This document shows positions 37,980 to 54,389 of a stretch of 64,000 bases of DNA, in pieces. The DNA is taken from assembly GCF_001045435.1 (NCBI RefSeq), contig NZ_LFNG01000013.1:1-64000 (forward strand). The letters are read 5' to 3'. This DNA is from Chryseobacterium koreense CCUG 49689 (GTDB lineage Bacteria; Bacteroidota; Bacteroidia; Flavobacteriales; Weeksellaceae). Each line of letters opens with the position of its first letter. Position 1 is the first letter of the stretch. The position numbers and the translations under genes were made by a program. The notes under the pieces were generated by a model that did no database searches, was not told the origin of the DNA, and saw only the letters and a program-made list of their open reading frames with translations.

Positions 37980-38010
37980 AGTCTGGAAAAGTCAAAGTTA
38001 CGCATAAAAA

Positions 38011-38031: not shown

Positions 38032-38035
38032 GTTT

Positions 38036-38044
38036 AAGTAGCCC
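38036..38044. repeat. Candidate degenerate att site (AAGTAGCCC)
   Basis: The nine bases match the start of the 19-base tRNA-Glu 3' repeat found at 47823 and 54315, in the same orientation and, as there, directly followed on the minus strand by a hairpin terminator with seven Ts. The match ends after nine bases, so on its own it is weak. Position and context make it the best candidate for the outer boundary of the older element. Confidence 0.4.
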
Positions 38045-38086
38045 CAACCGCAGAAATTTCGAAACATTTTTCGGGCGGTTTGGAGC
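38041..38086. repeat. Imperfect inverted repeat (GCCCCAACCGC / GCGGTTTGGAGC)
   Basis: The arms at 38041-38051 and 38075-38086 pair with one bulge and one G-T; the loop contains a second small hairpin (CGAAA/TTTCG). It lies just inside the proposed left end of the older element. The following stretch up to 38173 has no recognisable gene. Confidence 0.5.
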
Positions 38087-38173
38087 GGTAAAAGATGTTA
38101 CAAGAGAATGAGATTAGGATTTACAGGCGGAGTTGCGCTTTATTTGTCCTTGGCTCAACGGAAGTGCTTTTTA

Positions 38174-38923
38174 TCAATTCTTGCCATTTTTGAAAAAGTA
38201 CCCAATTGAAACCATCCAACCCCGATTGTATATTTTTATATTATCGGTTTGGGGGTCTCCATTCACATAGCTGCTGGCATATTGAAAAATATCGGTTAAA
38301 CCATGCGTGTATTTCGCTCCGATGGATACTCCTATCGGCAATTGGTATTCCAATCCTATATTGATGCCGAAATCAAGCTTCTGAAGGTACTTGTTTTCGC
38401 TTTCATCATTGTTTGGGGCTCCAAAGATACCCGAATCGCCAAAAGCATTTCCATTGTTGTCTTTCCGTTGTATTTTGGCTCCGAGCAATGCACTAATATA
38501 AGGACCTGCATATACTTGAAATCCTTTGGATTGAAATGCAGCATTGAAGGGCTGCAGTTCTAAATAATTCATTGTCAGCTTTGAGGAGTACCGCCCATTG
38601 ATGCTGTCACTAAGTTGTACTCCGGCAATTTTGTGGTTGAAAATCAGTTCATGTTTTAGCCAGAAATGTGTTCCGATTTTATTATCTACTATCAATCCAA
38701 AATGATAACCCGGTTGGCAAGTTGCTTTATCTTCAGCAAAGACATATCCTATATCTTTCCCGTAAATCGTGGAATAGCCGATTCCCGCTTTGATACCGAA
38801 TGAAACCTTATTGCGGCTGAATAAGTGGTTTCTAAAATCCGAAGCGGTATCAATAGAGGCTTTTTGCGCATTGGAAACAATGTAAAAAGACAGTGCGAAT
38901 ATGATGCTCAATATTTTTTTCAT
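38174..38923 (-). CDS. Outer-membrane beta-barrel protein (porin-like)
   Basis: The 249-residue protein has a signal peptide (MKKILSIIFALSFYIVSNAQ) and alternating hydrophobic strands ending in an aromatic residue (GWMVSIGYFFKNGKN at the end), typical of eight-stranded OprF/PorT-like barrels. GIKAGIGYSTIYG and GINIGLEYQLPIGVSIGAKYTHG (key part GVSIGAKYTHG) are strand-like. It is the last gene of the RND efflux operon, nine bases after tolC-like czcC. Its role with the pump is unknown; it could sense or channel substrate at the outer membrane. Confidence 0.75.
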   Translation of the reverse strand: MKKILSIIFALSFYIVSNAQKASIDTASDFRNHLFSRNKVSFGIKAGIGYSTIYGKDIGYVFAEDKATCQPGYHFGLIVDNKIGTHFWLKHELIFNHKIAGVQLSDSINGRYSSKLTMNYLELQPFNAAFQSKGFQVYAGPYISALLGAKIQRKDNNGNAFGDSGIFGAPNNDESENKYLQKLDFGINIGLEYQLPIGVSIGAKYTHGLTDIFQYASSYVNGDPQTDNIKIYNRGWMVSIGYFFKNGKN

Positions 38924-38932
38924 GCGTTTGTT

Positions 38933-40219
38933 TTAGAAATTAATATCCCAAATACCCGCTGCTCTTTCAAGTTCTACCAAAGCAGAGGCATGATTAAAAA
39001 GTGTTTGATAGTAGTTTTGTTGTACCTCATTGTAGGTTCGCTGTGCATTCAGCACTTCCAGCAATGTGGTTTCACCGCGCTTATAGCTATAGATTTTGCC
39101 CTCCAGAATAGTCTTTGCCTCAGCAAGCAATCCAGTATTGAATTGGGCAACCTGTTTTTGTGCTGCTTGGTAATTGAAATAAGCCTGCGTTACTTCTGCC
39201 TGCACCTGCAATTCGGTCTGTTTATATTGGGCTTCGGATTGCAAGGTGGTATAATAAGCCGTCTTTAATTCCCCCGAACGATTATTGGAAAATTTCAAGG
39301 GAATGCTAATGCCAATAACCGTTTGTGTAGTTGACGGTGTGGGTGCAATGGTATTTCGGACATAGGACGAATAAGTAATACCGCCAGTTAAGCCCAAGTC
39401 AATTACCCTATTGGCTTTTGCCAGCTGAAGAATTTTTTGGGAAACGTCTTTATTCTGTAAGGCAGCCATCAGGTCGGCTCGGGTATTTTGTGCATTGAGA
39501 ATAAGATCCGCTAGAATAAAGTTTCGGTCAAAGGTTGTGAAATGATCAACAGCTGTAGTAAGGGTATCGCTTTGTTCCGCTCCCATTAACAAGTTCAGAT
39601 TAACGAGTGAGGTTTTCCAGTCGGCAATGGTTTGATAAAGATCATTGAGCATAGTCCCGGCCTCCAGTTTACTTTGTTTTGCATCCACATTGGGAATAGC
39701 GCCCAATTTCGCGCGTATGCTGTCCGATTTTGCCAATTTGTCCATCGCCTGGTAAGAATTTAGCAAGACCTTTACCAAATGTTCCTTTTGAATGGCGTCA
39801 AAATATTGAATAGTAGCATCTGCGCGAAGATTTCTGAAATAATCCTGCAGCAGATATTTGGTGAGCTCCGTTTCACTTTTGGCAAGGTTTATTCTTGCTT
39901 TTCGCTTGCCTCCCAATTCGATTGTCCAACCGATGGCGGCATTATAGCCATATCCCATATTCATTCTGCGCTGCCCGTTGTCAAACCAACCGGTACTCAA
40001 TTCAGGATCAGGGAATACTTTTGCGCTTTCTATGCCTGCCTCGGAAATTTTCACATTGAATTTTTCCGCCGCATAGCCTACGTTATTCTTTCCCACCAAC
40101 TCTATATAATCCTGATAGGATATAGGTTTTTTTTGAAATGCAGTATCCGATTGACTGTATGCCAGATCGGCAAGTAATGCAAAGCCGATTAAAAAGCACA
40201 TTTTATATCCTGGTGTCAT
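38933..40219 (-). CDS. TolC family outer-membrane efflux protein (CzcC-like)
   Basis: The 428-residue protein has a signal peptide and the duplicated long-helix organisation of TolC/CzcC proteins (for example QLKEKVLLN-like helices; AQKQVAQFNTGLLAEAKTI and LLEVLNAQRTYNEVQQNYYQ are in the conserved end regions). It should form the outer-membrane channel of the tripartite pump. It follows the RND permease gene by 15 bases. The family is specific for heavy-metal RND systems in this gene order. Confidence 0.9.
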   Translation of the reverse strand: MTPGYKMCFLIGFALLADLAYSQSDTAFQKKPISYQDYIELVGKNNVGYAAEKFNVKISEAGIESAKVFPDPELSTGWFDNGQRRMNMGYGYNAAIGWTIELGGKRKARINLAKSETELTKYLLQDYFRNLRADATIQYFDAIQKEHLVKVLLNSYQAMDKLAKSDSIRAKLGAIPNVDAKQSKLEAGTMLNDLYQTIADWKTSLVNLNLLMGAEQSDTLTTAVDHFTTFDRNFILADLILNAQNTRADLMAALQNKDVSQKILQLAKANRVIDLGLTGGITYSSYVRNTIAPTPSTTQTVIGISIPLKFSNNRSGELKTAYYTTLQSEAQYKQTELQVQAEVTQAYFNYQAAQKQVAQFNTGLLAEAKTILEGKIYSYKRGETTLLEVLNAQRTYNEVQQNYYQTLFNHASALVELERAAGIWDINF

Positions 40220-40234
40220 TTTTTATTTTTATAA

Positions 40235-43200
40235 TTAAACCTTGCTGTCATTATTTTTCACACTTCTTTTTTCTAACAAATAGTAAAGGGAAGGCAGCGC
40301 ATATAAAGTAATGGCTGTGGCAAAAAGCAACCCGTAAACGATCACGGTAGCCAGCGGTCTTTGCACATCGGAACCAATGCCCGTGGCCAAAGATGCAGGC
40401 AGCAACCCCAATATAGCAACAGTGGCGGTCATCAATACCGGTCTGAAACGCTGCCTTGATCCTTCCCAGACCGCATTTTCCAAGGAATAGCCGTTTTTCC
40501 TTAGCATATTGAATTGGGAAATCATAAGAACGCCATTTTGAATAGCCACCCCGAATAAAGCAATGAACCCAACAGCCGAAGACACGTTGAGGGTCATTCC
40601 CCTTATATTTAAAGCAAGCATACCACCGAACAACGCAAGGGGAACCATGCTCATTAATAAGCCCGCCTGCGAAAAGCTGCCAAATGCACCGTAAAGCAGA
40701 ATAAACATAATTGCCAGTGCCATAGGTACAATTATCGCCAAATGTTGATAAGCCCTGTTTTGGTTTTCAAACTGGCCGCCCCATTTAATGCTATATTTAT
40801 TGTGGTCATATTTTACCTCTTTTTCAATTTTTGCCTGCGCTTCTTTCAGGAAGGAGGTCAGGTCGTTTCCACGAAGGTTCAGCCGGACGGTCAATTGGCG
40901 TTTATTCATTTCCCTCGAAATGGTGCTTTCTCCTGTGTTCAGTTTTACTTCTGCCACCTGTGACAATGGAATTTTTGCACCTGCCTCATTGGTAAGCATC
41001 AGATTTCCTATTTTCTCTGGTGTATTCCGACTGTCTTCGCTATACCGGCATATAATATCATATACTTTAACACCCTGGAAAACCTGCGAAATAGGTTTTC
41101 CACCAATAGCTGTTTCTATAAGGTCTGACACATCAGCAACATTTAAACCGTATTGCGCAATCTTATTTCGGTCAGCGGTAATCTGGAGTTGTGGCAATGG
41201 TGGTTCCTGGTCAATAGCCAGATCTGCTGCACCTTTTACTTTTTTGAGTGTGGCCAGTACCTCTTCAGCAATTCTGCGGGTTTCTTTAAAATCCTCTCCA
41301 TATATCTTTACGGCCAACTCGCTATGCGCCCCGGCTATTTTATCCATCACCCCATCAATCATGGGTTGGGAGAAAGCCACATTGTATCCGGGCATTCCGT
41401 CATATTCAGCAGCCAGTTCATTGATCAAATCTGCTTTTGTTTTACCGTTTTTCCAGTCTTTGTAAGGCAACAGTCCCACGCTGCATTCAAAATGCGAAGG
41501 GGTCCAGGCATCGGTCCCGTCATCATTTCGGCCTGCCTGCACCATTATGTAGGTTACTTCAGGATATTTCAGCGTTCGTGCACGCAGCGTGTCACTCATT
41601 TCTTTAGACTTTTCCACGGTAATACCGGGAGGAAGCGATACCTGCAACCAGATAGAGCCTTCATCCAATGGAGGCAAAAAGTCTTTACCGACGGTATAGG
41701 TTAACGCCACAGCACCTGAAAATATCAGAATTAATGGCAGGAATACACTTTTGGGTTTATTTAATAATTTCCCTACTCGACTGTGATAGAGATTAGTTAA
41801 GCGTTCCAGCCATTTGTTGTGATATATTTTTTGGGGTTTCCGATAAACGGCATACGCCAATCCGGGAATAAGAAACAATGCCACCAGCAAAGCGCCAAGC
41901 AGTGCATAACCCACCGTGAACGCCATTGGGGTAAACAGCTTTTTTTCTATGCGTTCAAAAGCAAACAATGGCAAATAAGCTGTAATGATAATAATGGTTG
42001 CAAAAAATATAGGTCTTGCCATTTGCTTTACCAATGCCACAACACCTGCTTCTGTGAGTTCTTCTTTTTCATGGTCTTCCCTTTGTTTCAGCACCGCCTC
42101 CATCATCACAATGGCCCCATCTACAATAATTCCGAAATCAATGGCTCCTAATGACAATAGATTTGCCGGAATGTTGGTGAAATGCATCAATACAAAAGCA
42201 GTGAGCAATGATATGGGAATAGTGACAGCAACCAATAAGGCACCCCTCCAGCTTCCGAGAAACAGAATGAGGACGATAATAACCAGACCCATTCCTTCCA
42301 GTAATGTTTTAGAAACGGTATGCAGTGTGGTATCTACCAGATTCGTACGATCTAAAAACGGATGGATTTTAACGCCCTCCGGAAGAATACCATTATTTAA
42401 ATCGTCAACAGCTTCATTAACTCCTTTTAATACCACGGAAGGGTTTTGGCGTTTTAATAAAAGAACAATACCCTCTATATTGTCTGAATAATTTGCTCCC
42501 CGTTTATCAGAATATCCTAAAGCGCCTTTCCGTTCCAGATTTCCGTATTTTATACTGCCAATATCATTCATAAAAACGGGAGTGCCGTTCACTGATTTTA
42601 CGACTACCTTTCCAATATCGTCCAGCGTTCTTACCAGTCCTATACCTCTTACCACATACGATTGATCGCCACGGTTCATCACGCTACCTCCCGCATTGGT
42701 ATTATTGGCACCCACTTTAGCTGCCACATCGTTCAGGGAAATATTGTACTGCTCCATCTTGTGTGGGTCAAGCTCTATCTGGAACTGGGTAGTGATGCCT
42801 CCAAAATTGGTTACATCTGCAACGCCGGGAACCTGCTTGATCCGGGGCATGATGACGAAATTCTGAAGGTCGGTAAGCTCCCGCAGGTCCTGCGTTTTGC
42901 TTTCAATGATATAACGGAATATTTCTCCTGTTGGAGACGTCAGCGGATCGAGACCGGGTTTTGCTCCATAAGGCAGTTCAAGATCAGCCAGGCGCTCCTG
43001 GATGCGTGTCCTAGCGAAGTAATCGTCTGTACCGTCTTCAAAAACAATCGTTACCATTGAAAGCCCGAAGGTACTTTTGCTACGCATCACATGCATTCCG
43101 GGTAAACCGTTAATGGCCCGCTCTATAGGAATGGTGATCTGCTGTTCCACTTCCTCGGCAGCAAGACCGGGAACCTGCGTTACGACCTGTGAAGTAACAT

Positions 43201-43327
43201 CTCCGATATCGGGATAGGCTTCAATAGATAACTGCGTCCATGAGTAGTACCCAAAGAAAGACAATAGTGTAAACAGCGCCAGTATCAGACCACGTTTGGT
43301 GATGGTATGATTGAATATTTTTTTCAC
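40235..43327 (-). CDS. Heavy-metal RND efflux permease (CzcA/HME-1-like)
   Basis: The 1030-residue inner-membrane pump exports metal ions in exchange for protons. It has the RND layout of 12 membrane segments and two large periplasmic loops. The fourth membrane segment reads GAIDFGIIVDGAIVMMEA, with D, D and E at the positions typical of divalent-cation exporters (Co/Zn/Cd, CzcA type) rather than the CusA copper/silver set. The start IFNHTITKRGLILALFT and the ending ATAITLYALPSLYYLLE are family-like. Specificity for Co, Zn, Cd or Ni is inferred from this motif. Operon partners are the adaptor upstream and TolC protein downstream. Confidence 0.93.
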   Translation of the reverse strand: MKKIFNHTITKRGLILALFTLLSFFGYYSWTQLSIEAYPDIGDVTSQVVTQVPGLAAEEVEQQITIPIERAINGLPGMHVMRSKSTFGLSMVTIVFEDGTDDYFARTRIQERLADLELPYGAKPGLDPLTSPTGEIFRYIIESKTQDLRELTDLQNFVIMPRIKQVPGVADVTNFGGITTQFQIELDPHKMEQYNISLNDVAAKVGANNTNAGGSVMNRGDQSYVVRGIGLVRTLDDIGKVVVKSVNGTPVFMNDIGSIKYGNLERKGALGYSDKRGANYSDNIEGIVLLLKRQNPSVVLKGVNEAVDDLNNGILPEGVKIHPFLDRTNLVDTTLHTVSKTLLEGMGLVIIVLILFLGSWRGALLVAVTIPISLLTAFVLMHFTNIPANLLSLGAIDFGIIVDGAIVMMEAVLKQREDHEKEELTEAGVVALVKQMARPIFFATIIIITAYLPLFAFERIEKKLFTPMAFTVGYALLGALLVALFLIPGLAYAVYRKPQKIYHNKWLERLTNLYHSRVGKLLNKPKSVFLPLILIFSGAVALTYTVGKDFLPPLDEGSIWLQVSLPPGITVEKSKEMSDTLRARTLKYPEVTYIMVQAGRNDDGTDAWTPSHFECSVGLLPYKDWKNGKTKADLINELAAEYDGMPGYNVAFSQPMIDGVMDKIAGAHSELAVKIYGEDFKETRRIAEEVLATLKKVKGAADLAIDQEPPLPQLQITADRNKIAQYGLNVADVSDLIETAIGGKPISQVFQGVKVYDIICRYSEDSRNTPEKIGNLMLTNEAGAKIPLSQVAEVKLNTGESTISREMNKRQLTVRLNLRGNDLTSFLKEAQAKIEKEVKYDHNKYSIKWGGQFENQNRAYQHLAIIVPMALAIMFILLYGAFGSFSQAGLLMSMVPLALFGGMLALNIRGMTLNVSSAVGFIALFGVAIQNGVLMISQFNMLRKNGYSLENAVWEGSRQRFRPVLMTATVAILGLLPASLATGIGSDVQRPLATVIVYGLLFATAITLYALPSLYYLLEKRSVKNNDSKV

Positions 43328-43355
43328 TTCAATATTTTTATGTTTGTATTTTGAA

Positions 43356-44489
43356 CTATTTTGCGTCTAGCAGGTAGAACGCCCCCTCACTGATGATTAC
43401 ATCTCCATTCGCCAATCCGGAGAGGATCTGTATTTTGCCCTGGTCTGTTATCCCGGTTTCCACGTAGCGCTTTACATATCGATCTTTGCCCACCTGTAGC
43501 ATTACGTAGCTTTTGTCATTATACTGTAAAAGTGATTTTTCGGGGACAAAAATAGCATTGGTGGGATTGTCCATCAACTTTACCGTTACATACATACCGG
43601 GTTTAAGAAGGCGATCGGTGTTGGGGCATTCAATCAATACCTGTACGCTCCGGGTGTCCTCATTCACTATTTCATCAATGTGATAAATACTTCCTTTTAT
43701 TTTTTTGTCGGGGAAAGCGGCAATGGAAACTTCAGCATTATCCAGACCCTGAATAAAGCGAAGGTCTTTTTCTTTAACCATGCCCACCACCCATACTTTG
43801 CCCAGCTCTGCAACTTTTGCACGTGGTGGGTCATCCGATTTAATGAATTGCCCCATGACGACCTCATTTGTTATCACTTCTCCGGCAATTGGCGATCTTA
43901 CCACAAGCGGCTGGCCGAATACCAATTTATTTACATCCACATTGAATATTTTGAGCGATGCCATTGCATTCTGGTACTCCTTCTGTTTAATCTGATAATT
44001 GGTTTCCGCTTCTTCTAGGTCTTTTTCCGCTCCTACCCCATGCGCTTTTAAATCTTGCTGCCGCTTCATCGTAAGCCCCGCATTCTGGTATTCGGATTTT
44101 GCCTGGAAGAACAATTTTTGCGCATCGGTAAATTCGGCGGAGGTCATTTCAAACAAAGGTGTACCGGGTTTCACTTTCAGCCCCAATCGCAAATGGACGG
44201 CTGTAACACGACCGGAAAAAGGCGGAGCTATTTCCGCATACAGATTGGGGATGGCTTTTACCGTACCTGCTGACAGCAATTCCGGCCGATATTCCTGGGT
44301 TTCCACCGTAAAGGTTTTTAGCTGAGATTTCACTTTTGCCTGGCTGCCTACCGCAATAGTATCATTACTAATGGCAAAATCCTCTATCTTCCCCTCTTCT
44401 CCTTTACCGTGGCAGCTCAAGATGACCAATGAAACAATAGGGACAAAAAAAGTTTTCCTTACCTTGATCTTGAATGTTGTCATCATCAT
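43356..44489 (-). CDS. RND efflux periplasmic adaptor (CzcB-like), lipoprotein
   Basis: The 377-residue membrane fusion protein starts with three consecutive ATG codons; the exact start is uncertain by two residues. The lipobox VILSC puts the lipidated Cys at C26. Barrel-sandwich and hairpin parts are visible: LRLGLKVKPGTPLFEMTSAEF (key part VKPGTPLFEM) and, after the coiled-coil hairpin, VVRSPIAGEVITNEVVMGQ. It links the RND permease to the TolC channel. It is the first gene of the pump operon and lies below a 343-base regulatory spacer. Confidence 0.92.
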   Translation of the reverse strand: MMMTTFKIKVRKTFFVPIVSLVILSCHGKGEEGKIEDFAISNDTIAVGSQAKVKSQLKTFTVETQEYRPELLSAGTVKAIPNLYAEIAPPFSGRVTAVHLRLGLKVKPGTPLFEMTSAEFTDAQKLFFQAKSEYQNAGLTMKRQQDLKAHGVGAEKDLEEAETNYQIKQKEYQNAMASLKIFNVDVNKLVFGQPLVVRSPIAGEVITNEVVMGQFIKSDDPPRAKVAELGKVWVVGMVKEKDLRFIQGLDNAEVSIAAFPDKKIKGSIYHIDEIVNEDTRSVQVLIECPNTDRLLKPGMYVTVKLMDNPTNAIFVPEKSLLQYNDKSYVMLQVGKDRYVKRYVETGITDQGKIQILSGLANGDVIISEGAFYLLDAK

Positions 44490-44832: not shown

Positions 44833-46203
44833 TTACACAACCGCAGGTAATTCAACGGTAAAAGTTGTTCCCCGGCCTACTTTAGAGAAAACACTGATGG
44901 TCCCTTTATGCAGCGTGATGATCTTGTGGGTAAGAGATATACCGATGCCGTTACCTTCTGCAAACTTTTTGTTCTCCCCGCGATAAAAGGGCCTAAAAAT
45001 ATTTTCCAGGTCGTTTGGGGAAATACCCACTCCTTTATCGGTAAAGCGCAGCGTAATTTTTCCCTTGCCGAATGAAACATAAACGATGCTTTCCTTATCG
45101 GCTGAGAATTTGCAACCGTTTTCAAAAAGGTTAACGAACGCAACCTTCAAAAGATATTCGTTGCCATTAACCGAGATTTGGTTATCATCATCAAAGTCAT
45201 TTTCAAAGTGGATATCAACCCTATAATCAGGGTCAGCTTTTTGCACCTGCTGCCTTGCATCCAGCAAAACTTCGTCAATCCTTGTGTTTTTAAATTTAAT
45301 TTCAGAAAGGTCATAACTTGCCTTTGCAAAGTCTAAAAGGCTGCCGGATAAACGGGATATTTTTTTCGCATCCTTTAGCGCATTCAAAATAGCCATTTTG
45401 TATTCTTCGGCCGCACGCTCCTTATCCACAGACAATTCCAGCTCGGCAATCAAAGCGGAAAGTGGTGTCCGAAGTTCGTGCGAGATATTTGAAACAAAAT
45501 GTTTCTGGGCATCAAATGAACTTTCCAACCGGTTTAGCATCTCATTGAATGTGTTGGCCAATTCGGAAAGCTCATCGCTACTTTCGTTACTTGATAGCCG
45601 TAAATCAAGGTTAGTGGCGGTGATATTCTTTGCCTTCTCTATCATTTCACTAACCGGCTGAAAGGCTTTTCTGGAAAAGAATATCCCAATAATGATAATA
45701 ATTAAAACAGAGGCAATAAAAACAATAATAATATTGGTGAGCAGACTGTTTAATTTGCTATATCCATACTGGTCATAAGCTGCCGCGGTAATGATAAACT
45801 GTTTCCCATTATATTCATACCGCAAACCAACCACCTGCCAGTCTTTCTGATAAAATTCCACGGCTCCTTTTCGGGAGATTTCATCCATCAGCGGCCTGGT
45901 TTCCTTCACGAAATCTATATCCACCGCATCGTGGTAAAGCAGCTCAAAATGCGTGTCGTAAATAGCGACCTCGACTTCATTGAGGATTTTCCGGTTGTTG
46001 TGGTAGATGTCTTGCAGCACATTTTTGTCAACATGGGCATTCAGAAAAAGGTTTGCCTTGGTAACGGCTTCTTTCTCAAGCAGACTATAAAACTCTTTTT
46101 CCCTGTTTTTCTTCGCGGAAAGATAGATAACGGTAGCAAACAGCATCAGAATTATTGCTGTAGTAAGGGTAAAAAGTATGATGAGCCGTGTTCTTATTTT
46201 CAT
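44833..46203 (-). CDS. Sensor histidine kinase (CusS-like)
   Basis: The 456-residue kinase has two membrane segments (about 7-30 and 157-177) enclosing a periplasmic sensor domain. A HAMP domain follows (about 178-232), then the dimerisation domain with the phospho-acceptor H242 in SHELRTP. The ATP-binding domain shows the N box LFENGCKFS, the G1 box DKGVGIS and the G2 region GNGIGISL. It should sense metal in the periplasm and phosphorylate the response regulator whose gene overlaps its start by four bases. The metal is not determined. Confidence 0.92.
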   Translation of the reverse strand: MKIRTRLIILFTLTTAIILMLFATVIYLSAKKNREKEFYSLLEKEAVTKANLFLNAHVDKNVLQDIYHNNRKILNEVEVAIYDTHFELLYHDAVDIDFVKETRPLMDEISRKGAVEFYQKDWQVVGLRYEYNGKQFIITAAAYDQYGYSKLNSLLTNIIIVFIASVLIIIIIGIFFSRKAFQPVSEMIEKAKNITATNLDLRLSSNESSDELSELANTFNEMLNRLESSFDAQKHFVSNISHELRTPLSALIAELELSVDKERAAEEYKMAILNALKDAKKISRLSGSLLDFAKASYDLSEIKFKNTRIDEVLLDARQQVQKADPDYRVDIHFENDFDDDNQISVNGNEYLLKVAFVNLFENGCKFSADKESIVYVSFGKGKITLRFTDKGVGISPNDLENIFRPFYRGENKKFAEGNGIGISLTHKIITLHKGTISVFSKVGRGTTFTVELPAVV

Positions 46204-46883
46204 TGTTCCGCCTTCAAAATAAAGCCCATTCCAGGTTTGGTATGGATGAGTTTTTTATCAAAGTTCCGATCTATTTTTTTTCGAAGATAGTTGATATAAA
46301 CATCAATGAAGTTTGTGCCGGTATCAAAATGCGTTTCCCATACTTTTTCTGCAATTTCTACTCGTGACAATACCCTGTTTGGATTTTGCACCATATACTC
46401 CAATAACTTAAATTCTTTAGGCGTAAGGTTAATTTCATGGTGATCACGTTTCACGATCTTGGTATGCAGGTTCATTTCCAAATCGTCATACTTTAAAATG
46501 AAACCGGAGGCATTGGTAGTCTTGTTGTTTCGCTTCAGCAATGCCCTGATGCGCACCAAAAGCTCACGCATCTCGAAAGGCTTCACTAAATAATCATCTG
46601 CGCCCGCATCAAAACCTTCCACCTTATCGTCTGTTGTGCCAAGTGCAGTAAGCATGATAATGGGTAAATCGGGTTTTGTCTGCCTGATCTCTTTACAAAA
46701 ATCTATCCCGTCCATTTTGGGCAGAATAATATCTGTGATGACCAGGTCAAAATTATTTTGTAGTGCCAATTTCTTTCCTGAAAGCCCGTCATACGCCAAA
46801 GTGGGGGTAAATCCTTGTTCTCTTAATCCCCTTTCTATGAGTTCGGCCACCCTTTGATCGTCTTCTATGATTAAAATTGTCAT
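46200..46883 (-). CDS. OmpR/PhoB family response regulator (CusR-like)
   Basis: The 227-residue regulator has a receiver domain with acidic pocket EDD near residues 7-9, phosphorylation site D51 and K101 in LVKPFE. The C-terminal winged helix (about 130-225) binds DNA (NLTPKEFKLLEYMVQNPNRVLSR is the signature, key part LTPKEFKLLEYM). It precedes the kinase gene with an ATGA overlap. Its likely target is the czc pump operon directly downstream on the same strand. A TAAATTTG -7 box lies upstream at about 46902-46909 on the minus strand. Confidence 0.93.
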   Translation of the reverse strand: MTILIIEDDQRVAELIERGLREQGFTPTLAYDGLSGKKLALQNNFDLVITDIILPKMDGIDFCKEIRQTKPDLPIIMLTALGTTDDKVEGFDAGADDYLVKPFEMRELLVRIRALLKRNNKTTNASGFILKYDDLEMNLHTKIVKRDHHEINLTPKEFKLLEYMVQNPNRVLSRVEIAEKVWETHFDTGTNFIDVYINYLRKKIDRNFDKKLIHTKPGMGFILKAEQ

Positions 46884-47149: not shown

Positions 47150-47507
47150 TTTCTCGGCCATCAAGACACTATCCCGCAAAAAATACATCACTAATTCTTA
47201 TTTAGGGTTTAATTTATTTAAACATGCTCTTAATGTCTTTGACCTATTTTACCTGTGTATCGGTAGAGTTGTAGTTTTTGTTGAGATAATCTACAAATGC
47301 TACCCTGAACAGCTCATTTATTTCCGTCATTAACAAATTTTTCCCGAATGTTTCAACAACTTTTTTAGACTGTTGTACCGTCTGATTGTATTTTGGGTTA
47401 ATCGCTTTACGCCTTTAATCTTATCTTCAACACTTCGTATATTGCAGCTAGAAGTCAATAAAATCAGTAAATTTTTTGGGAAATTTATTTTTCGGTCTTT
47501 TCATTTC
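47150..47507 (-). pseudogene. Decayed tyrosine recombinase (integrase) fragment
   Basis: Read on the minus strand, segments of this stretch align by eye with the intact integrase at 52735-54108: FTDFIDF versus FSDFIDYY, RSVEDKIKG versus RSVEDKTKG, NTIRRYNSLKKLL versus NTIKKYNTLKKVV, LLMTEINELFR versus LLITEINDTFR, DTQVK then VKDIK versus NTQVKYIKDIK. A stop and a frameshift follow FIDF, and a second stop lies after DTQVK. Only the N-terminal and core-binding part remains, and the catalytic domain is gone. It belongs to the older element. Confidence 0.85.
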
Positions 47508-47789
47508 AAATCGAATGCGGTATGAAAAATAATTAGGCGAAACCTGTAATAAACCGATTCACTATCACAGTTGCATGAAGTTTGAATTTGATATTAGAGC
47601 CCTCATGAATAATTGAACGAAGCAAAACCACAAATCAAACAGGTGCAAAATCCGTGCATCTTAATTTGAACCTGCATCTGTGACCATCCATTTAAAATGT
47701 AATGAAATTTCATACCATATATTCCAATTGTTGTCGAACGCTATAGAAAAGGGGGGTTCATTGTAATAATTTGAGTTTGTTGCATAAAA
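47508..47789. other. Non-coding remnant between decayed integrase and att
   Basis: No gene or clear structure is seen. By position it should hold the upstream part and arm sites of the decayed integrase, but the integrase N-terminus could not be traced here. Confidence 0.4.
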
Positions 47790-47813
47790 AAAGGACTCCC
47801 GAAGAAGTCCTTT
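47790..47813 (-). terminator. Hairpin terminator carried by the older element next to its tRNA-end copy
   Basis: AAAGGACT and AGTCCTTT form the stem; seven Ts and ATGC follow on the minus strand. It lies ten bases beyond the copied tRNA-Glu 3' end at 47823-47841. Its sequence is close to the hairpin at 54281-54306. Confidence 0.85.
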
Positions 47814-47822
47814 TTCACTAAA

Positions 47823-47841
47823 AGTAGCCCGTAGGGGAATA
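47823..47841. repeat. att site copy: 19-base direct repeat of the tRNA-Glu 3' end
   Basis: AAGTAGCCCGTAGGGGAAT is identical to 54315-54333, which covers the 3' end of tRNA-Glu and the T-stem. The rest of the tRNA is absent here. It marks the boundary between the intact element and the older one. Confidence 0.92.
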
Positions 47842-48281: not shown

Positions 48282-48980
48282 TTAATAGCCTCGATTATCC
48301 AAAACGGTATTATTTAAATTAATAAATTCTATCTCTAATAATTTACTGGTAGCAGGATATGAGTAACCCCCAAATTTTCCGTATGAATATTCAGTCTTAA
48401 CACTAATATCGCAGCTGTTAATTTTCCATATCTTAGAGTTAATCTTGCTTGACATGTATGATTTCCCACTTCCTGTTTTTTGCGAGTCTCCATCTTTATT
48501 TTCTAACGTAATATTAAATTTATTACTGATATTATAACTTTCACTAATAATTGGATATTTTTTTTTGATAAGTGCTGAAAATCTACTGTAATCATCTTGT
48601 AAATTTGTTTCTTCAGATAAGCTATATTTTTTTTCGACAGAAATTTTGTAAACAATATTATCAATCAATTTTAGATTATATTTAACAAAATCTTCTCTAT
48701 TAGAATTTGAGAAACAATTATGCAATTTATATTTAAAACTTATAAACTTTTGGTAATGATCACCTTGAATATATTCAAAATCTGCTTTATAATCTGGAAT
48801 TTTCCTTTTATTATCAATAGCCATATTTTCACTAACATCGAAAATATTGGTATCTGAAAGTATTTTATTATTTACTTCAAAATACTTTTTTCCAAGGAAA
48901 TTTAGTGTTAGATCATTTAAATTGCACTGAGATTTTGCAAAAATGCAAGAGATGAAAAATAAGAAAGTTATAATTTTCAT
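48282..48980 (-). CDS. Secreted protein of unknown function (element cargo)
   Basis: The 232-residue protein has a signal peptide (MKIITFLFFISCIFAKSQ). The mature part is rich in Lys, Ser, Asn and Tyr and has three cysteines after the signal (C19, C93 and one in NSCDISVK). No domain is recognised. It is the last gene on this side of the element, so it is probably cargo rather than part of the mobility functions. AT content matches the element. Confidence 0.7.
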   Translation of the reverse strand: MKIITFLFFISCIFAKSQCNLNDLTLNFLGKKYFEVNNKILSDTNIFDVSENMAIDNKRKIPDYKADFEYIQGDHYQKFISFKYKLHNCFSNSNREDFVKYNLKLIDNIVYKISVEKKYSLSEETNLQDDYSRFSALIKKKYPIISESYNISNKFNITLENKDGDSQKTGSGKSYMSSKINSKIWKINSCDISVKTEYSYGKFGGYSYPATSKLLEIEFINLNNTVLDNRGY

Positions 48981-49035
48981 ATTTTAAATTTTTGTTTAGA
49001 AATTTTTGCTTTAGTTTTAAATTATCAACCTTTAA

Positions 49036-49405
49036 TTATTCTTCTTTGACAATAATTGACATTCTAAGAACTTTTCTATTAAACGCCATCCCATAGTAAT
49101 ATCCATCGACCTTATTATCTTGCTCCAACAACAAAATCCCGTCAGCACCGTATTTTCTTGCTTCTATAATGGCACTTTCCATTAATTTATTTTCATTCTT
49201 CCCCCCATCCTCGATCATCGACAGTTAATAAACCTATTTCTTTAAATTTGAACGAGATGGAGGCAGGGGTGCTAAATATCCTAATATCGGTCGAATCTGA
49301 TTTAGACTCTCGTTTGATTTTGTCGTATGAAGTGTAGCGTATTTTTTGAGCAAGGATAAGGGTGCCCAGGCAAAATGAAAATAGCAGAATAAATATTTTT
49401 TTCAT
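49036..49405 (-). pseudogene. Small secreted protein gene with a frameshift in a G6 run
   Basis: Two overlapping frames form one protein. The first gives a signal peptide and TVDDRGWG; the second continues KNENKLMESAIIEARKYGADGI to a natural end. They would join after removal of one G from the six-G run at 49201-49206 (C run on the plus strand), giving about 123 residues. The second part also has an ATG of its own. This may be a true frameshift, a phase-variable tract or a sequencing error. Function is unknown. Confidence 0.7.
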
Positions 49406-49650
49406 ATCATTTGATTTTACACAAATCTAAATATAATTTTTTAATTGTCAAAAGGTTAGATATAGTAATACACTCGCATAAAAAAAAAGGAAAGAAAACG
49501 TTTTATAATCGCCCCTCCCCCTTGTTTTATAACGGATTTTAATTTGAAATTTGAAACTAAATTAGGTATGCGCCCAATTAGTTAAAGTCTAACATCATTC
49601 AACCATAAAGGTTGCGTAGGTGTTTATATTGTTTATTTGATAACCCGACC

Positions 49651-51027
49651 TTATATAAAATTAAACTGCGGTTGGTTTGGGTGGTAATTCCTGCGTTGAA
49701 AAGATAAGTTATTGTGTTGCTCGTTGTAAATTCTATTCTTAATATTCTTCTCTATATTTTCAATCTGTTTTTCTTCTGAAGCATTTAATAATTTTGGGGA
49801 CAAAAACTTTTCTTTTATCTTATTGTAACGGAACAGATTATTTTCTTTTAAAAATCTTAATCCCTCTCTTTTAAGATATGGCTCACCATTTCTTTGCATG
49901 GAAATATCTTCCCCAGTTACAACACAAAAGTGTGTCGTGTTTCCTATATCAACAAGTAGTCTTTTATTTTTAAAAAGGTTTAATCCTCTGTACAAGGGCG
50001 TTTCCTCCGAATCACTTTCAATATCCTCCGTGCGGAAATACGACATACTTTTTATATCAGAATAAGTGTTATTTTGCACTTCGACGGCTTTCAAAATTTC
50101 GGCTACAACAATTTTTTTAGTATCTGATTTACGGGGTAATTTTAACCATTTATCCTTGGATGTTCTCAACTCCCTTTTCTCCTTTCCTTCCCAAAAATTC
50201 TTTGCAATTGCTTGAAAATATTTTCTTCTGTCGGGTGTACTTAATTTTTTATCACTAACGATATCCTTTGGATTGAATACGAAAATTTCATTCAAATGTT
50301 CTTTTAGAAATATTATACACCGCTCCAATATATTCTCATCAAATAAACTATCTAATGTTGTGAATCCCCATTTATTGCAGTATGCCATTGTTTCAGCGTT
50401 AACCTCAAACCTCATTATATTTTCCTCGCAATAACCTAATTGATAATACATTAACCTTACTTGGTTATTTGTCTGTTTTGCTTTACAATAGTTCTTAATT
50501 TTACAATTTTTATTTCGTCTTGCATCACCACTTTTTCTATCAACTATGTCATTCTTTTTCCCCTTAACACCCTCCTTGCCTGCTGCATAATAGTAATGGG
50601 GGTATAAAGGGTGCTGATTAAATCTCGCATTTTTATAAAAAAGAAAACATTGTAAAATTGTTTCTGGTGATACTACAGATAAATAATTTACTCCAATTTC
50701 AATTGCTGATATATCCCAAAATATAAAATTTCTTTTCTCGATCCCAATATCATTTAACGTTATTTTAATCTGCTCTTGCGCTTCTCTAATAGAGAAAGGA
50801 TTGGCATTGTGTATATTGCCATTTATCTGTTTATGGGGGCTGAAGTCAATAAATACTTTATACAATTTCTTATTTTGGTATTTAAATCTTATAATTATTC
50901 CTGTTCCTGTATCATAAACAGTCCACAAATTATCTTGAGACTTCATTTTAAAATTATCCTGACATACGCCCATTAATTGATACATTACAGGCGCATGCTG
51001 GTTGCCAAGTGTAATTCTATCTATCAT
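49651..51027 (-). CDS. Filamentous-phage gpII/X-like replication initiator
   Basis: The 458-residue protein matches, by eye, the motif order of filamentous phage gene II replication proteins: FSPHKQINGN (residues 62-71; compare SPAKVLQGHN in M13), DISAIEIGVN (105-114; compare a RIDATF motif) and MRFEVNAET (205-213; compare VRFEARIET). The last 100 residues add CVVTGEDISMQRNGE, a motif seen in Bacteroidota versions. Such proteins nick DNA and start rolling-circle replication. It overlaps the preceding small gene by one base. Assignment rests on motif memory; a distinct mobilisation protein is the main alternative. Confidence 0.6.
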   Translation of the reverse strand: MIDRITLGNQHAPVMYQLMGVCQDNFKMKSQDNLWTVYDTGTGIIIRFKYQNKKLYKVFIDFSPHKQINGNIHNANPFSIREAQEQIKITLNDIGIEKRNFIFWDISAIEIGVNYLSVVSPETILQCFLFYKNARFNQHPLYPHYYYAAGKEGVKGKKNDIVDRKSGDARRNKNCKIKNYCKAKQTNNQVRLMYYQLGYCEENIMRFEVNAETMAYCNKWGFTTLDSLFDENILERCIIFLKEHLNEIFVFNPKDIVSDKKLSTPDRRKYFQAIAKNFWEGKEKRELRTSKDKWLKLPRKSDTKKIVVAEILKAVEVQNNTYSDIKSMSYFRTEDIESDSEETPLYRGLNLFKNKRLLVDIGNTTHFCVVTGEDISMQRNGEPYLKREGLRFLKENNLFRYNKIKEKFLSPKLLNASEEKQIENIEKNIKNRIYNEQHNNLSFQRRNYHPNQPQFNFI

Positions 51028-51230
51028 TACTGAAAACTATTTTCAAGCGCATTAATGTAACTCTCAATTGTTTCCGTTTGAGCGGTAAAACCCTCTTCCA
51101 ATTCCACATTAATTAATTTAATCTTTAAATCAATGATAGTTTCAATTGTAATTTCCGTAGCACTTTTAACCTCGTCAGTATCAGTAAAATATAATGACTG
51201 AATTTCCTTTAATAAACTAAGTGCATTCAT
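51027..51230 (-). CDS. Small helical protein of unknown function
   Basis: The 67-residue acidic protein is predicted to be helical (TEITIETIIDLKIKLINVELEEG). It overlaps by one base both the HTH gene upstream and the replication gene downstream, so the three are translationally coupled. This position suggests an accessory role in replication or excision of the element. No domain is recognised. Confidence 0.7.
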   Translation of the reverse strand: MNALSLLKEIQSLYFTDTDEVKSATEITIETIIDLKIKLINVELEEGFTAQTETIESYINALENSFQ

Positions 51231-51514
51231 TATTTAATTTTATTATCATTCAATAAGGTTTCAATTTCTGAGCGGAAATAATACACACTTCCCTCCACTA
51301 AAGAAGGCTTAACTGTTCCTTTCTTTCGCCATCTATGTTCCGTACTTCTGTCTATCTTAAGCATTGCGCACATTTCGTCAATGCTAAGTAATTCTTCAGG
51401 CTGTTTGGGCTGGAACTCTTTTGATAGTTCTGCTTTGAGTTGCGGAATTATAGCATTGGACAATGCTGTTACTAAATCTTGTGGCGTTATGCCGATAAAT
51501 TGAATGGTATTCAT
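51230..51514 (-). CDS. Excisionase-like helix-turn-helix protein
   Basis: The 94-residue protein has a C-terminal MerR/AlpA-type HTH: LLSIDEMCAMLKIDRSTEHRWRKKG followed by a wing (VEGSVYYFRSEIETLL), key part MCAMLKIDRSTEHRW. Proteins of this helix_turn_helix_17 type serve as excisionases or replication regulators in integrative elements. The N-terminal 35 residues are helical. It is the first gene of the HTH-67aa-rep group. Confidence 0.82.
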   Translation of the reverse strand: MNTIQFIGITPQDLVTALSNAIIPQLKAELSKEFQPKQPEELLSIDEMCAMLKIDRSTEHRWRKKGTVKPSLVEGSVYYFRSEIETLLNDNKIK

Positions 51515-51683
51515 CTGTATTTGTTTTGATGTTATTTTACAATATTAAGGCGGTGAATAAAAAATTAAGGGTTTGCTTAATTATGTTCCTTACCGTTTTG
51601 TATTGCAAATCTCATCAACCAAAAAATTCGGAAATTCTTCGGAAAAATCTTTTCTTCCGAACCTAATTACTGAAAACTAAAAA

Positions 51684-51704
51684 AACGCCCTGAATAAAGG
51701 CGTT
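51684..51704 (-). terminator. Terminator of the integrase-side genes
   Basis: AACGCC and GGCGTT arms with nine bases between, followed by seven Ts on the minus strand, lie 26 bases after the 221-residue gene. They separate the integrase operon from the replication operon. Confidence 0.85.
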
Positions 51705-51729
51705 AATGAATTTAATAGAGAGTTTACAA

Positions 51730-52395
51730 TTAATAAAATTTAAACTCCTCTAATTTATTTTTGATTTGTTGTTTTTTAGTATGAGATAAATTTTTCATTA
51801 AATATTTTACATTACTCTTATCAGTAGTAAATAAGGTATTTGTACTACTTGCTAAGAGGGGCTTTTTGGTAATTAGTTCGAAAAATTTAGCAATTGAATT
51901 GGTAGAAGTGTTAGTGTATTTCTTTTCAAGATGGTCAATAATACCTGTTTCATGAAGCAATCGTATTGTATCAGAATATGAATTAATTTCATTGCTTTCC
52001 GTGTCTTCTGTTGAATTTTTATTATTTACTACTATAGATTTTGATATGCTTTCTTTATAAAATATAAATTTGCGCTTCTCATCAGCAACATAGTTCCACA
52101 TATCTTCATACATTCCCTTTATTGCGAAAATTTCACTTTTCCTTTTTTGTTCGGTTGTGTTATCCATTTCGTTATGTAAAAGTTCTTCGATCACTCCAAA
52201 ATGTGTATGTAAGTTTTCACAAAATGTTTCATAATCTTCCTCTAATTCTTCATTCAAAAACAAAAAATTAGATTGAAGAGATTGCAAATCATCAACATCA
52301 AAATCATCAAGAGCCATTTGGTATTTACTAAAATCTTCATCGCTCTTTAATTCTGCTATTATCTTAGTAGGAAGATACTTCTTAAATTCACTCAT
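51730..52395 (-). CDS. Unknown protein (221 aa) of the integrase operon
   Basis: The protein is acidic and helical (LNEELEEDYETFCENLHTHF), with a Ser/Thr/Asn-rich linker about 125-140. The basic C-terminal segment YLMKNLSHTKKQQIKNKLEEF may bind nucleic acid. No signal peptide, membrane segment or domain is recognised. It starts four bases after the 104-residue gene, so both are co-transcribed with the integrase. Recombination accessory or defence-type cargo are both possible. Confidence 0.72.
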   Translation of the reverse strand: MSEFKKYLPTKIIAELKSDEDFSKYQMALDDFDVDDLQSLQSNFLFLNEELEEDYETFCENLHTHFGVIEELLHNEMDNTTEQKRKSEIFAIKGMYEDMWNYVADEKRKFIFYKESISKSIVVNNKNSTEDTESNEINSYSDTIRLLHETGIIDHLEKKYTNTSTNSIAKFFELITKKPLLASSTNTLFTTDKSNVKYLMKNLSHTKKQQIKNKLEEFKFY

Positions 52396-52399
52396 CTTT

Positions 52400-52714
52400 T
52401 TACTGTATTTCTATCGTTTGCAAATTTCCTTTATAATTTACTACTTCATTTTCTGTAAAAAAATCAACAATAGATTTAAATGCAATACTTATATTTTCGT
52501 AATGCTCAAAAACTTCTTTCTGTTTATCTTTACTTAAGGTTTTAAAATCATCTGACAAAACATAAGTTTTAAACCATTTAGAATAAGACAAATTAAAATC
52601 ACTATTCAAAGCTTCAAAACGTTCTGCATCATTAACAAGTTGTTCAATAAAATCATCTTTCACTTGTTGCGGTAATTCTCTAATTGATTGAAAGGGTGTC
52701 TTTTGCGTTTCCAT
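52400..52714 (-). CDS. Unknown small protein (104 aa) of the integrase operon
   Basis: The 104-residue acidic protein is probably all-helical (LPQQVKDDFIEQLVNDAERFEAL, KDKQKEVFEHYENISIAFKS). It follows the integrase by 20 bases and precedes the 221-residue gene by four. No domain is recognised. The close spacing suggests joint function with the 221-residue protein. Confidence 0.72.
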   Translation of the reverse strand: METQKTPFQSIRELPQQVKDDFIEQLVNDAERFEALNSDFNLSYSKWFKTYVLSDDFKTLSKDKQKEVFEHYENISIAFKSIVDFFTENEVVNYKGNLQTIEIQ

Positions 52715-52734
52715 CGGTTTATATTTTTATGTTA

Positions 52735-54108
52735 TTAAACTATTTTCAATTGTACTTCTTTGTGAGCATCAGCAACAAGTTTAGCACTCCTTAACATCAA
52801 TTCATTTTCATCTGTTTTATTGTAGTGTTCTACCATTTCGTTACTGTGGTGATTGGTTTGAATTTTAAGAATTTCAGTAGGCAAATATTCACTAAATAAG
52901 GTAACATAAGTTTTGCGCCCCGAATGGCTCGAAACCAATTTATTAAAAGGATATATCCCCTTTACTTTTCTAAAAATAGGTTCTTTCTCTGTTCCTACAT
53001 TCATTATTATTGCGCCCTCCGTTGGTGCAGTAAACCCGATAATTTCACAAACTTTTTTAATATGTTCATTAAATCGTTGCTCACTTATTTTTCTCGGGAA
53101 ACTTCCGTTTCTTTTATTCATTATTTCAACAACTTGCGGAAGTAAGTAAATGATTTTCTTTCCTCCGGTAGTGTTAAGGTTTTTGCGTTCCGTTACTTTT
53201 AAATATTTGTCATTACCATCTTCGATAATATTTTCAGTGTCAAAGGTGAAAAGTTCAGAAACCCGAACCGAAGTATAGCACGAAATCAATAACCAATCTT
53301 TCGCATTTTCTAAACTTTCCCTTATCATTGTGGTTTCAGAAAGGATTTTTAATTGCTCAAAAGTAAAGGTAATGCCATCAGAAACATTCTCTATTTTACT
53401 ATTTGGTACTATATCCCAAAACAAAACATCTTTTGAAATTGGTAATTCTTTACTTGCAAACTTGCAAAGTGTTTTAATATCCTTTATGTACTTAACCTGT
53501 GTGTTAGTAGCATAATTATTTTTATTTAGAAAATTTGCAAAATCATTTCTGAAAGTATCGTTAATTTCAGTTATCAATAGTTTTTTACGGAAAGAAGCCA
53601 CCACTTTTTTAAGCGTGTTATATTTCTTTATGGTATTATACGCAAGGGGTTTTGTTCCTTTGGTTTTATCTTCTACACTTCTAAAATTCAAATAATAATC
53701 AATGAAATCACTAAACCCATCGGGCATAGAATGAGATTTTTCGGGCTTATTAAGTTGGATTTTATTTGCAAAATAATTTTTAAGTACAAAATCTTTAATC
53801 TTTACTTTTTGGGTGTCTGCATCATTATCGCTAATACTATCAATGAAATCACAGACTTTAATTCTGAAAGATGATAATTGTGAATTAAATTTATTTATCT
53901 GGGTATTTAATAATTTGGTTTCTTGTAACCTCGCACCATTTATAATCTGCCCCTCATTCCATTGTTGTTTTTCAGAATCCCAATTATTAGGATTTATTTT
54001 AAATGGTGTCGCAAGTGTTAAATCAAAACGTGAATTTGGTCGGTATCTGAATTGTACCGTTTGTGAAGTAGGGTTTGTTCCTTTCAATAAAAATCTAATG
54101 GTTGCCAT
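52735..54108 (-). CDS. Tyrosine recombinase (element integrase)
   Basis: The 457-residue recombinase has an Arm/SAM-like N-terminal part (about 1-90), a core-binding SAM-like domain (about 125-235) and the catalytic domain (about 245-440). Catalytic residues are R282 (TSVRVSELF), H395 and R398 (HSGRK), H421 and the nucleophile Y429 (VEHYNK). All are present, so it should be active. The N-terminus faces the tRNA-Glu gene 209 bases away. It is of the Bacteroidota conjugative-transposon type. A decayed relative lies at 47150-47507. Confidence 0.95.
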   Translation of the reverse strand: MATIRFLLKGTNPTSQTVQFRYRPNSRFDLTLATPFKINPNNWDSEKQQWNEGQIINGARLQETKLLNTQINKFNSQLSSFRIKVCDFIDSISDNDADTQKVKIKDFVLKNYFANKIQLNKPEKSHSMPDGFSDFIDYYLNFRSVEDKTKGTKPLAYNTIKKYNTLKKVVASFRKKLLITEINDTFRNDFANFLNKNNYATNTQVKYIKDIKTLCKFASKELPISKDVLFWDIVPNSKIENVSDGITFTFEQLKILSETTMIRESLENAKDWLLISCYTSVRVSELFTFDTENIIEDGNDKYLKVTERKNLNTTGGKKIIYLLPQVVEIMNKRNGSFPRKISEQRFNEHIKKVCEIIGFTAPTEGAIIMNVGTEKEPIFRKVKGIYPFNKLVSSHSGRKTYVTLFSEYLPTEILKIQTNHHSNEMVEHYNKTDENELMLRSAKLVADAHKEVQLKIV

Positions 54109-54164
54109 ATCTCTGTGTTTTGTTTACCAAAGATATGTAATAAATCGAAGCGGTTAAATATCAT

Positions 54165-54184
54165 CCCCACGCTATCCCCATCAA
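54165..54184 (+). repeat. Probable integrase arm-type site, right copy
   Basis: CCCCACGCTATCCCCATCAA matches 47891-47910 at 17 of 20 positions, the three differences being the bases after the first CCCC. It lies between the integrase start and the tRNA. Confidence 0.65.
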
Positions 54185-54280
54185 ATAGCAATTTCATGCA
54201 ATAAGATACTTTTTAATAAGATTATCTAAAAACCTCTGTAACCCCCATCAATATTGCATTTGAAACATAAACACAAAAAA

Positions 54281-54306
54281 ATAAGGACTTCCAAAGAAAT
54301 CCTTAT
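54281..54306 (-). terminator. Hairpin terminator carried by the intact element next to tRNA-Glu
   Basis: ATAAGGA and TCCTTAT pair across a 12-base loop; seven Ts follow on the minus strand. It begins 12 bases beyond the tRNA end and would end the rpsT/tRNA-Glu transcript before the integrase. Confidence 0.8.
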
Positions 54307-54314
54307 TGCATAAT

Positions 54315-54333
54315 AAGTAGCCCGTAGGGGAAT
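54315..54333. repeat. att site at the tRNA: 19-base direct repeat
   Basis: Identical to 47823-47841 and covering the discriminator base, the acceptor-stem 3' strand and part of the T-stem of tRNA-Glu. Integration therefore restores a complete tRNA. Confidence 0.92.
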
Positions 54334-54389
54334 CGAACCCCTCTTACCAGAATGAAAATCTGAGGTCCTAACCGATAGACGAACGGGCC
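54318..54389 (-). tRNA. tRNA-Glu (anticodon TTC)
   Basis: The 72-base RNA folds with acceptor arms GGCCCGT / ACGGGCT, anticodon loop TTTTCAT between TCAGA and TCTGG, and a perfect T-stem AGGGG/CCCCT around TTCGATT. The anticodon is TTC. CCA is not encoded. It lies 17 bases after rpsT and is the integration site of the element. Confidence 0.95.

Follow-up and report, generated by a model that had tools for sequence, protein, structure and literature searches.

Stacked integrative elements at a tRNA-Glu gene of Chryseobacterium koreense, and a protein resembling Rep_trans/MOBT nickases

The tRNA-Glu locus and its three junctions

Between the host genes aroQ and rpsT, the 64-kb window analysed here (the whole stretch of 64,000 nucleotides (nt), positions 1 to 64,000 of contig NZ_LFNG01000013.1 of Chryseobacterium koreense CCUG 49689) contains a tRNA-Glu(ttc) gene, a 6.5-kb integrative element beside it (element A, 47841-54314) and, farther out, a block at 38-47.8 kb with metal-efflux genes and the remains of a second integrase (Table 1). 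The 19-nt sequence AAGTAGCCCGTAGGGGAAT occurs in two exact copies of the same orientation, at 47822-47840 and 54315-54333, the right-hand copy being the 3' end of the tRNA-Glu gene. A first-pass annotation of this DNA had correctly described both copies as perfect but had placed the start of the left one at 47823, off by one. No third copy with up to three mismatches was found within the window, and a chance origin of the repeat was rejected, as only 0.01 matches are expected per shuffled window. The element-side arm that follows the distal attachment (att) site of element A, ATACAAAC, also occurs at the distal att of a sibling element in a genome of another genus, G047.

Table 1. Features of the aroQ-rpsT interval, in window coordinates
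Feature	Position	Strand	Evidence
aroQ, left host flank	37569..37979	-	DHquinase_II E 1e-51
Native tRNA-Glu terminator, displaced outward	38010..38035	-	fold -16.4 kcal/mol, z -6.3
Outer att remnant, tRNA-Glu last 7 nt + 2 flanking nt	38036..38044	none	38003-38044 identical to L005/G028
Outer-membrane beta-barrel protein	38174..38923	-	OMP_b-brl_2 E 1e-13
TolC-like outer-membrane efflux protein	38933..40219	-	OEP E 2e-43
CusA/CzcA-family RND metal pump	40235..43327	-	TIGR00914 938.9 bits, cut-off 701.45
RND periplasmic adaptor	43356..44489	-	HlyD_D23 E 2e-33; RND_mfp above cut-off
Sensor histidine kinase	44833..46203	-	HisKA, HATPase_c, HAMP
Response regulator	46200..46883	-	Response_reg, Trans_reg_C
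Integrase relic of older element	47178..47543	-	residues 108-230 of intact integrase
Terminator attributed to older element	47788..47816	-	fold -16.9 kcal/mol, z -3.3
Distal att of element A, 19 nt	47822..47840	none	exact repeat
Cargo, 232 aa	48282..48980	-	no Pfam, PHROG, NCBIfam or PADLOC match
Rep_trans/MOBT-like protein, 458 aa, candidate nickase (relaxase and/or rolling-circle initiator)	49651..51027	-	predicted fold, residues
Small protein, 67 aa	51027..51230	-	clusters with proteins of siblings L195, L155
HTH_17 protein, probable excisionase/regulator	51230..51514	-	HTH_17 E 1e-8; PHROG excisionase family E 2e-8
Cargo, 221 aa	51730..52395	-	best family match E 0.016 (Pfam, PHROG, NCBIfam, PADLOC)
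Cargo, 104 aa	52400..52714	-	best family match E 0.031 (Pfam, PHROG, NCBIfam, PADLOC)
Intact tyrosine integrase, 457 aa	52735..54108	-	Phage_int_SAM_5 E 2e-9; PHROG integrase E 2e-20
Terminator attributed to element A, now 3' of tRNA	54280..54307	-	fold -14.1 kcal/mol, z -3.3
tRNA-side att of element A, 19 nt, 17 of them tRNA	54315..54333	none	exact repeat
tRNA-Glu(ttc), target gene	54317..54389	-	tRNA prediction
rpsT, right host flank	54407..54661	-	Ribosomal_S20p E 8e-25

At the aroQ end of the block the att-like word is reduced to 9 nt, AAGTAGCCC, which is expected by chance as a 9-mer and is weak on its own. The 42 nt at 38003-38044, comprising the native terminator and seven tRNA bases, are nevertheless identical to sequence in G028, which of the genomes compared is nearest to the window genome as judged by aroQ and has an empty site; there they continue into a complete tRNA-Glu gene and then rpsT. 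Because of this identity, 38036 is taken to be a true old junction, on firmer grounds than those on which the first-pass annotation had pointed to it. The empty arrangement, with tRNA-Glu directly beside aroQ and 151-160 bp between aroQ and rpsT, on whose existence the proposal of successive insertion depended, was found in 12 of the 36 genomes of the genus compared (the window's own, G000, included), G028 among them. Since the empty state exists in relatives, all of 38045-54314 was gained in the window's lineage. As in tandem accretion, the locus has three junctions with att-like sequence, all oriented alike. The innermost lies within an intact tRNA gene, and the outermost is eroded.

In the remaining genomes the interval between aroQ and rpsT holds either elements or, in many, conserved genes for proteins of 1667, 781 and ~313 amino acids (aa); in G002 it contains what we take to be his-like genes. 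The 8.8-kb aroQ-tRNA intervals of other members of the genus were considered as islands and rejected, their genes being genus-wide and core in appearance. One or two tRNA-Glu genes adjoin rpsT in the relatives scanned, and in G006 (L130, 10393-12838) the tRNA-Glu/rpsT unit is duplicated, with tRNA-Glu at 10393, 12322 and 12766, rpsT at 10492 and 12423, and open reading frames (ORFs) of 117 and 309 aa between the copies.

Each of the three junctions carries a predicted intrinsic terminator, and all three fold. The terminator and att of the older block (47786-47840) are 84% identical to those of element A (54278-54333), and a native type, CTTCCGAA..TTCGGAAG, lies directly 3' of tRNA-Glu in 26 of the 36 genomes. 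Five of the other ten have an element at the tRNA (G000, G015, G021, G024 and G030), and in G000, G024 and G030 the native type is found at the outer att instead; the other five (G002, G004, G013, G020 and G027) have hairpin variants or another hairpin. In the window the native type is outermost and a different hairpin occupies each inner junction, so the order of the layers can be read from the terminators, that of the host staying outermost while inner junctions carry those of the element type.

The same arrangement recurs at related elements. Counted at a length of at least 13 nt, a distal att copy is present in 10 of 12 tRNA contexts, with none for L155 (tRNA-Cys) nor for tRNA-Leu outside the G015 element. 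Of the ten elements having such a copy, all but the split loci of G030 and G015 were tested, and in each of these eight a terminator-like hairpin follows the att copy at the tRNA as well as the distal one. At each of the 16 junctions the hairpin strength was equalled by 0 or 1 of 40 mononucleotide shuffles, although the tRNA-side hairpin of L194 takes up its own T-run and the distal hairpin of G047 starts 41 nt downstream. The tRNA sides of G030 and G015 showed no obvious terminator within the 45 nt inspected. A literature search on terminator replacement at att sites returned nothing on point, and it is not claimed here that the phenomenon is unpublished. In G015 a tRNA-Leu(cag) gene (L142, 9090-9172) was also observed, located between conserved genes and the element's distal att.

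Element A and its 458-aa protein

Element A is AT-rich, with a G+C content of 0.295 compared with 0.413 for the core. As the first-pass annotation had stated, its integrase gene is intact and lies next to the tRNA, 206 nt from the 19-nt repeat. Alignment to the G047 integrase shows R282, H395, R398 and Y429 to be present, which we take to be the residues expected of tyrosine recombinases. Element A has the intact integrase and flanking att sites expected of an integrative and mobilizable element (IME). Pfam and NCBIfam searches of the element A proteins gave no match to type IV secretion system (T4SS) families and recognised none of the known relaxase families; with PHROG added, they recognised no terminase, capsid or capsid-diverting genes. 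The genome contains TraG (TIGR03783) genes elsewhere, at G000:C6:142723-145203, C4:221051-226018 (in two pieces) and C3:6145-8823, and these loci are candidate helper integrative and conjugative elements (ICEs). Within element A, two ORFs of 70 and 60 aa in different frames (49036-49405, minus strand) resemble one gene broken by a frameshift.

The 458-aa protein matches no Pfam family below E 0.001 and no PDB sequence up to E 1, and PADLOC returned nothing relevant for it. AlphaFold models were made of the whole protein and of residues 1-323, with predicted local distance difference test (pLDDT) scores of 80.1 and 90.4, respectively. With the model of residues 1-323, VIA-align ranked the three Rep_trans entries 4cwe, 4cwc and 4cij first (Z 12.9, 12.4 and 11.3; next entry 6.4), the root-mean-square deviation from 4cwe being 3.7 over 242 residues; with the whole model, Rep_trans entries reached Z 12.6, 11.6 and 11.2 against 6.5 for the next. 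Residues D3, E110, Y180, K182, R206 and E208 are invariant in all 28 aligned homologues of the protein (hereafter REP; 28 of 30 fetched loci, excluding L082, which has an in-frame stop, and the short L092). The order D, E, YxKxxQ, RxE (D3, E110, Y180, K182, Q185, E208) can be set beside the active-site residues D72, D177, Y252, K254, E257 and E280 given for RelSt3 in the available text of PMC6499999. The spacings are 107/70/28 in the 458-aa protein and 105/75/28 in RelSt3, and range over 100-116, 48-70 and 18-49 in a smaller alignment of 21 of the 30 loci. The protein has the acidic triad and the catalytic Tyr and Lys of motifs N', I, III and IV that are characteristic of Rep_trans, and follows the full published wording of the motifs (RxD; T/SxY/ExG; YxKxxE; W/LxRxE) in part.

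Several observations weigh against this assignment. Motif I has E for D and lacks the R of RxD, motif II was not identified, the last residue of motif III is Q in 19 of 21 sequences and N in 2 of 21 instead of E, and motif IV has I, V, L or T where W or L precedes xRxE. A Foldseek search of the PDB had no hit at E <= 0.001 and ranked spermine synthases highest; the Rep_trans entries rose only on re-alignment by VIA. The best BFVD match found by Foldseek was the inovirus replication protein G2P (E 1.6e-8), and for this reason relaxase is treated as a candidate role. As judged from the model and the conserved residues, the most likely activity of the protein is single-strand nicking at its own origin, in rolling-circle replication and/or relaxase-mediated transfer.

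REP homologues were found in 32 of 296 genomes of the host's bacterial family. The Pfam Rep_trans model gave no hit in 198 genomes of the phylum, although B. subtilis was found among 14 controls, and none of 21 REP members matched PF02486 up to E 0.1, the other Pfam matches being scattered and weak. Searches of 72,556 plasmid and 50,697 phage records at E 1e-5 gave no relatives of the 458-aa protein. A scan of viral contigs gave one REP locus, an IMG/VR contig (L198, 1-12376) on which an integrase-HTH-REP element is followed by genes that appear phage-like by eye.

Like RepD, RepSTK1 and RelSt3 (PF02486), the 458-aa protein has this predicted fold and order of residues; unlike them, it has no Pfam match, an extra C-terminal region and a host in Bacteroidota. 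Element A likewise resembles NBU1, NBU2, Tn4399 and Tn4555 in being integrative and in belonging to the same phylum. Those elements are mobilised by helper ICEs and encode MobP relaxases, and the few IMEs known from Bacteroidetes carry canonical relaxases (PMC5704250, available text), whereas the proteins of element A matched none of the known relaxase families. Streptococcal IMEs, in one of which a Rep_trans protein has been shown to act as the relaxase (IME_oriT; PMC7563843, available text), share with element A the combination of integrase and Rep_trans-fold protein, but they belong to another phylum, are detectable by PF02486 and use a different integration site. Among the papers retrieved, neither a Bacteroidota IME with a Rep_trans or MOBT protein nor the combination seen here, with a cryptic Rep_trans-type protein in Bacteroidota elements, was found. 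A family with the Rep_trans/MOBT fold that Pfam misses is the less expected part of these observations and the one most worth following; should its members be relaxases, small mobilizable elements of Bacteroidota overlooked by standard screens would become countable and testable.

Judged by gene content, element A is best read as IME-like, with a cryptic Rep_trans-type nickase, beside a relic resembling a cis-mobilizable element (CIME); excision, nicking and transfer would be its expected activities. That it is a phage satellite instead of an element mobilised by conjugation seems unlikely. Favouring a satellite are an element of 4.9 kb in G021, which has the same tRNA-Glu as its target and encodes a terminase small subunit and a short protein related to the 458-aa one, and the REP element on the IMG/VR contig. 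Against it, convincing matches of element A proteins to Pfam, PHROG or NCBIfam are confined to the integrase and the HTH_17 protein, no terminase or capsid gene is among the others, and the phage records lack relatives of the 458-aa protein.

The older block and the order of insertion

The first-pass annotation had placed the remains of a related integrase to the left of 47823, and these are present in the same orientation as the intact gene. The relic is 39-41% identical to the intact integrase (E 7e-18 with seven in-frame stops; E 3e-17 in a second search), and neither its N-terminal part nor its catalytic half was found. When the block was searched with 150 element proteins, three integrases alone matched the relic, one further match of 18 residues lay elsewhere (E 0.009), and no other element gene was convincing; the loss of integration and transfer genes is that of a CIME. 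The inner att of the block is an intact 19 nt. The metal-efflux genes reported by the first-pass annotation were also recovered, as a pump of the CusA/CzcA family with its adaptor, TolC-like and outer-membrane proteins and two-component genes.

The block is not core sequence, a possibility that the first-pass annotation had named as one that would refute successive insertion. Among the 35 other genomes of the genus, an orthologue of the pump (77%) occurs in G021 only, at another place, and in the other 34 the best match is at most 39%. Were the repeat and the relic products of chance and 38-47.8 kb core, the host-like G+C content of the block would be accounted for, but the empty sites refute this reading, the repeat expectation and the E value of the relic contradict it too, and its probability is negligible.

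The efflux operon may have been carried by the element that left the integrase relic. Points against this are that the G+C content of the efflux block (0.422) is close to that of the core while the relic region has 0.335, and that the block showed no trace of REP or HTH genes. Because of the difference in G+C content and the missing REP/HTH trace, relic and operon may be separate acquisitions. The left block would then combine the scar of an old element (relic and terminator, ~0.9 kb) with an efflux operon that arrived independently, homologous recombination being one conceivable route; we regard such a double origin as a serious possibility somewhat short of an even chance. The homologous operon of G021 is consistent with this: it has a similar order, aligned pieces of 67-93% nucleotide identity and extra genes inside, and lies elsewhere in the genome, with no tRNA in the 19.7 kb scanned around it. 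A single acquisition is favoured by the way in which the operon fills the interval between the att-flanked terminators almost exactly, leaving 129 bp from the last stop codon to the outer att.

Successive insertion at one tRNA, as the first-pass annotation had envisaged, gains support from the empty sites, the relic and the three junctions, and serial site-specific insertion at the 3' end of one tRNA-Glu gene, first by an element since decayed and then by element A, is probable. The outer att, with only 9 nt left, counts against it. An older tyrosine-integrase element would have entered between tRNA-Glu and the native terminator, moving the latter outward and supplying a new one. It would then have decayed, losing the catalytic half of its integrase while its outer att was eroded, to leave a CIME-like block in which the efflux operon is held. 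Element A, of the same integrase lineage, would subsequently have entered the restored tRNA 3' end, adding a third terminator and coming to lie between the tRNA and the older block. Nicking by its 458-aa protein would serve to replicate the excised circle by the rolling-circle mode and/or, with the protein as relaxase, to transfer it through the pore of a co-resident ICE.

The reverse order, in which element A came first and the older-looking block inserted later at its distal att and then decayed, predicts the same three junctions, so that the junctions alone fit it equally. The broken integrase and the eroded att, however, belong to the block and not to element A, and the G047 sibling is flanked by the tRNA on one side and, on the other, by an ICE end that in two other genomes is directly adjacent to the tRNA. 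The G047 layout fits entry on the tRNA side, though it can also be read in reverse. On this evidence the reverse order is improbable.

Sibling elements and other tandems at the site

Tandem accretion and the use of this att site by ICEs are already published, and the stacking described here is a new example. The available text of PMC5704250 describes accretion of an IME and a CIME in three steps (with Pavlovic et al. 2004 cited there); compared with the IME/ICE-CIME tandem of that source, the older block here keeps an integrase fragment and an eroded outer att, and may not be cis-mobilizable. ICEs at tRNA-Glu-TTC of Chryseobacterium and Elizabethkingia include ICECspPOL2, whose transfer was demonstrated (PMC8694125), and the type II ICECleSHZ29-like elements (PMC12561888), as far as these texts were available. 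Their target and att are those of element A, the 18-bp ATTCCCCTACGGGCTACT and 17-bp ATTCCCCTACGGGCTAC lying within the 19-nt repeat, but ICECspPOL2 is 116 kb long and has a T4SS, in contrast to the 6.5 kb of element A, in which no T4SS gene was recognised. A word search for 'tandem' in the available parts of both papers gave no mention of tandem elements at tRNA-Glu. With process and site known, interest centres on the cryptic nickase family and its link to att sites shared with ICEs.

Integrase, HTH and REP occur together in 9 of 12 element loci compared for gene content, most of which were picked for having REP. The targets of the siblings are tRNA-Glu, tRNA-Cys, tRNA-Gln, tRNA-Arg and tmRNA. 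The three-junction pattern, which the first-pass annotation had suggested looking for in other genomes, recurs in a second genome of the genus, G021, and an element-beside-ICE tandem is present in G047. The G047 sibling occupies the same tRNA-Glu beside rpsT. The contig ends 379 bp beyond its distal att, and these 379 bp share 98% identity with the sequence directly after tRNA-Glu in G021 and G024. In G024 that sequence ends a 61.5-kb interval, which is considered an ICE because it has att copies at its two ends (1845541 and 1907090) and contains a TraG gene. On contig C15 of G021 the inner arm of the ICE is found at one att copy, and a further copy 4.9 kb beyond bounds a second element (L204 11060 to G021:C15 ~15964) encoding an integrase, an HTH_17/AlpA-like protein, the short REP relative and the terminase small subunit (Terminase_2 E 8e-19), a content that appears satellite-like. 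Two of the G021 junctions are on C15 and the tRNA is on another contig, so that this tandem depends on joining the two. One att site thus serves ICEs, a terminase-carrying satellite-like element and REP elements, and a single tRNA can assemble composite islands.

More tentatively, one family may host a clade of small elements that target tRNA and tmRNA genes and combine an integrase, an HTH_17 protein and a Pfam-missed Rep_trans/MOBT-type nickase. They would share att sites with ICEs, bring their own replacement terminator and settle between the tRNA and a resident element, with the nickase acting as a relaxase that rides the pore of the neighbouring ICE; stacking would then be part of their spread and not an accident. 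Taken as a whole, this scheme is possible but doubtful.

The closest integrase relatives compared differ in target. That of G047, 53% identical to the integrase of element A, is at tRNA-Glu, and that of Elizabethkingia sp. YR214 (L194, 9709-18227), 60% identical, is at tRNA-Arg(ccg), which suggests that the choice of site can shift within an integrase lineage.

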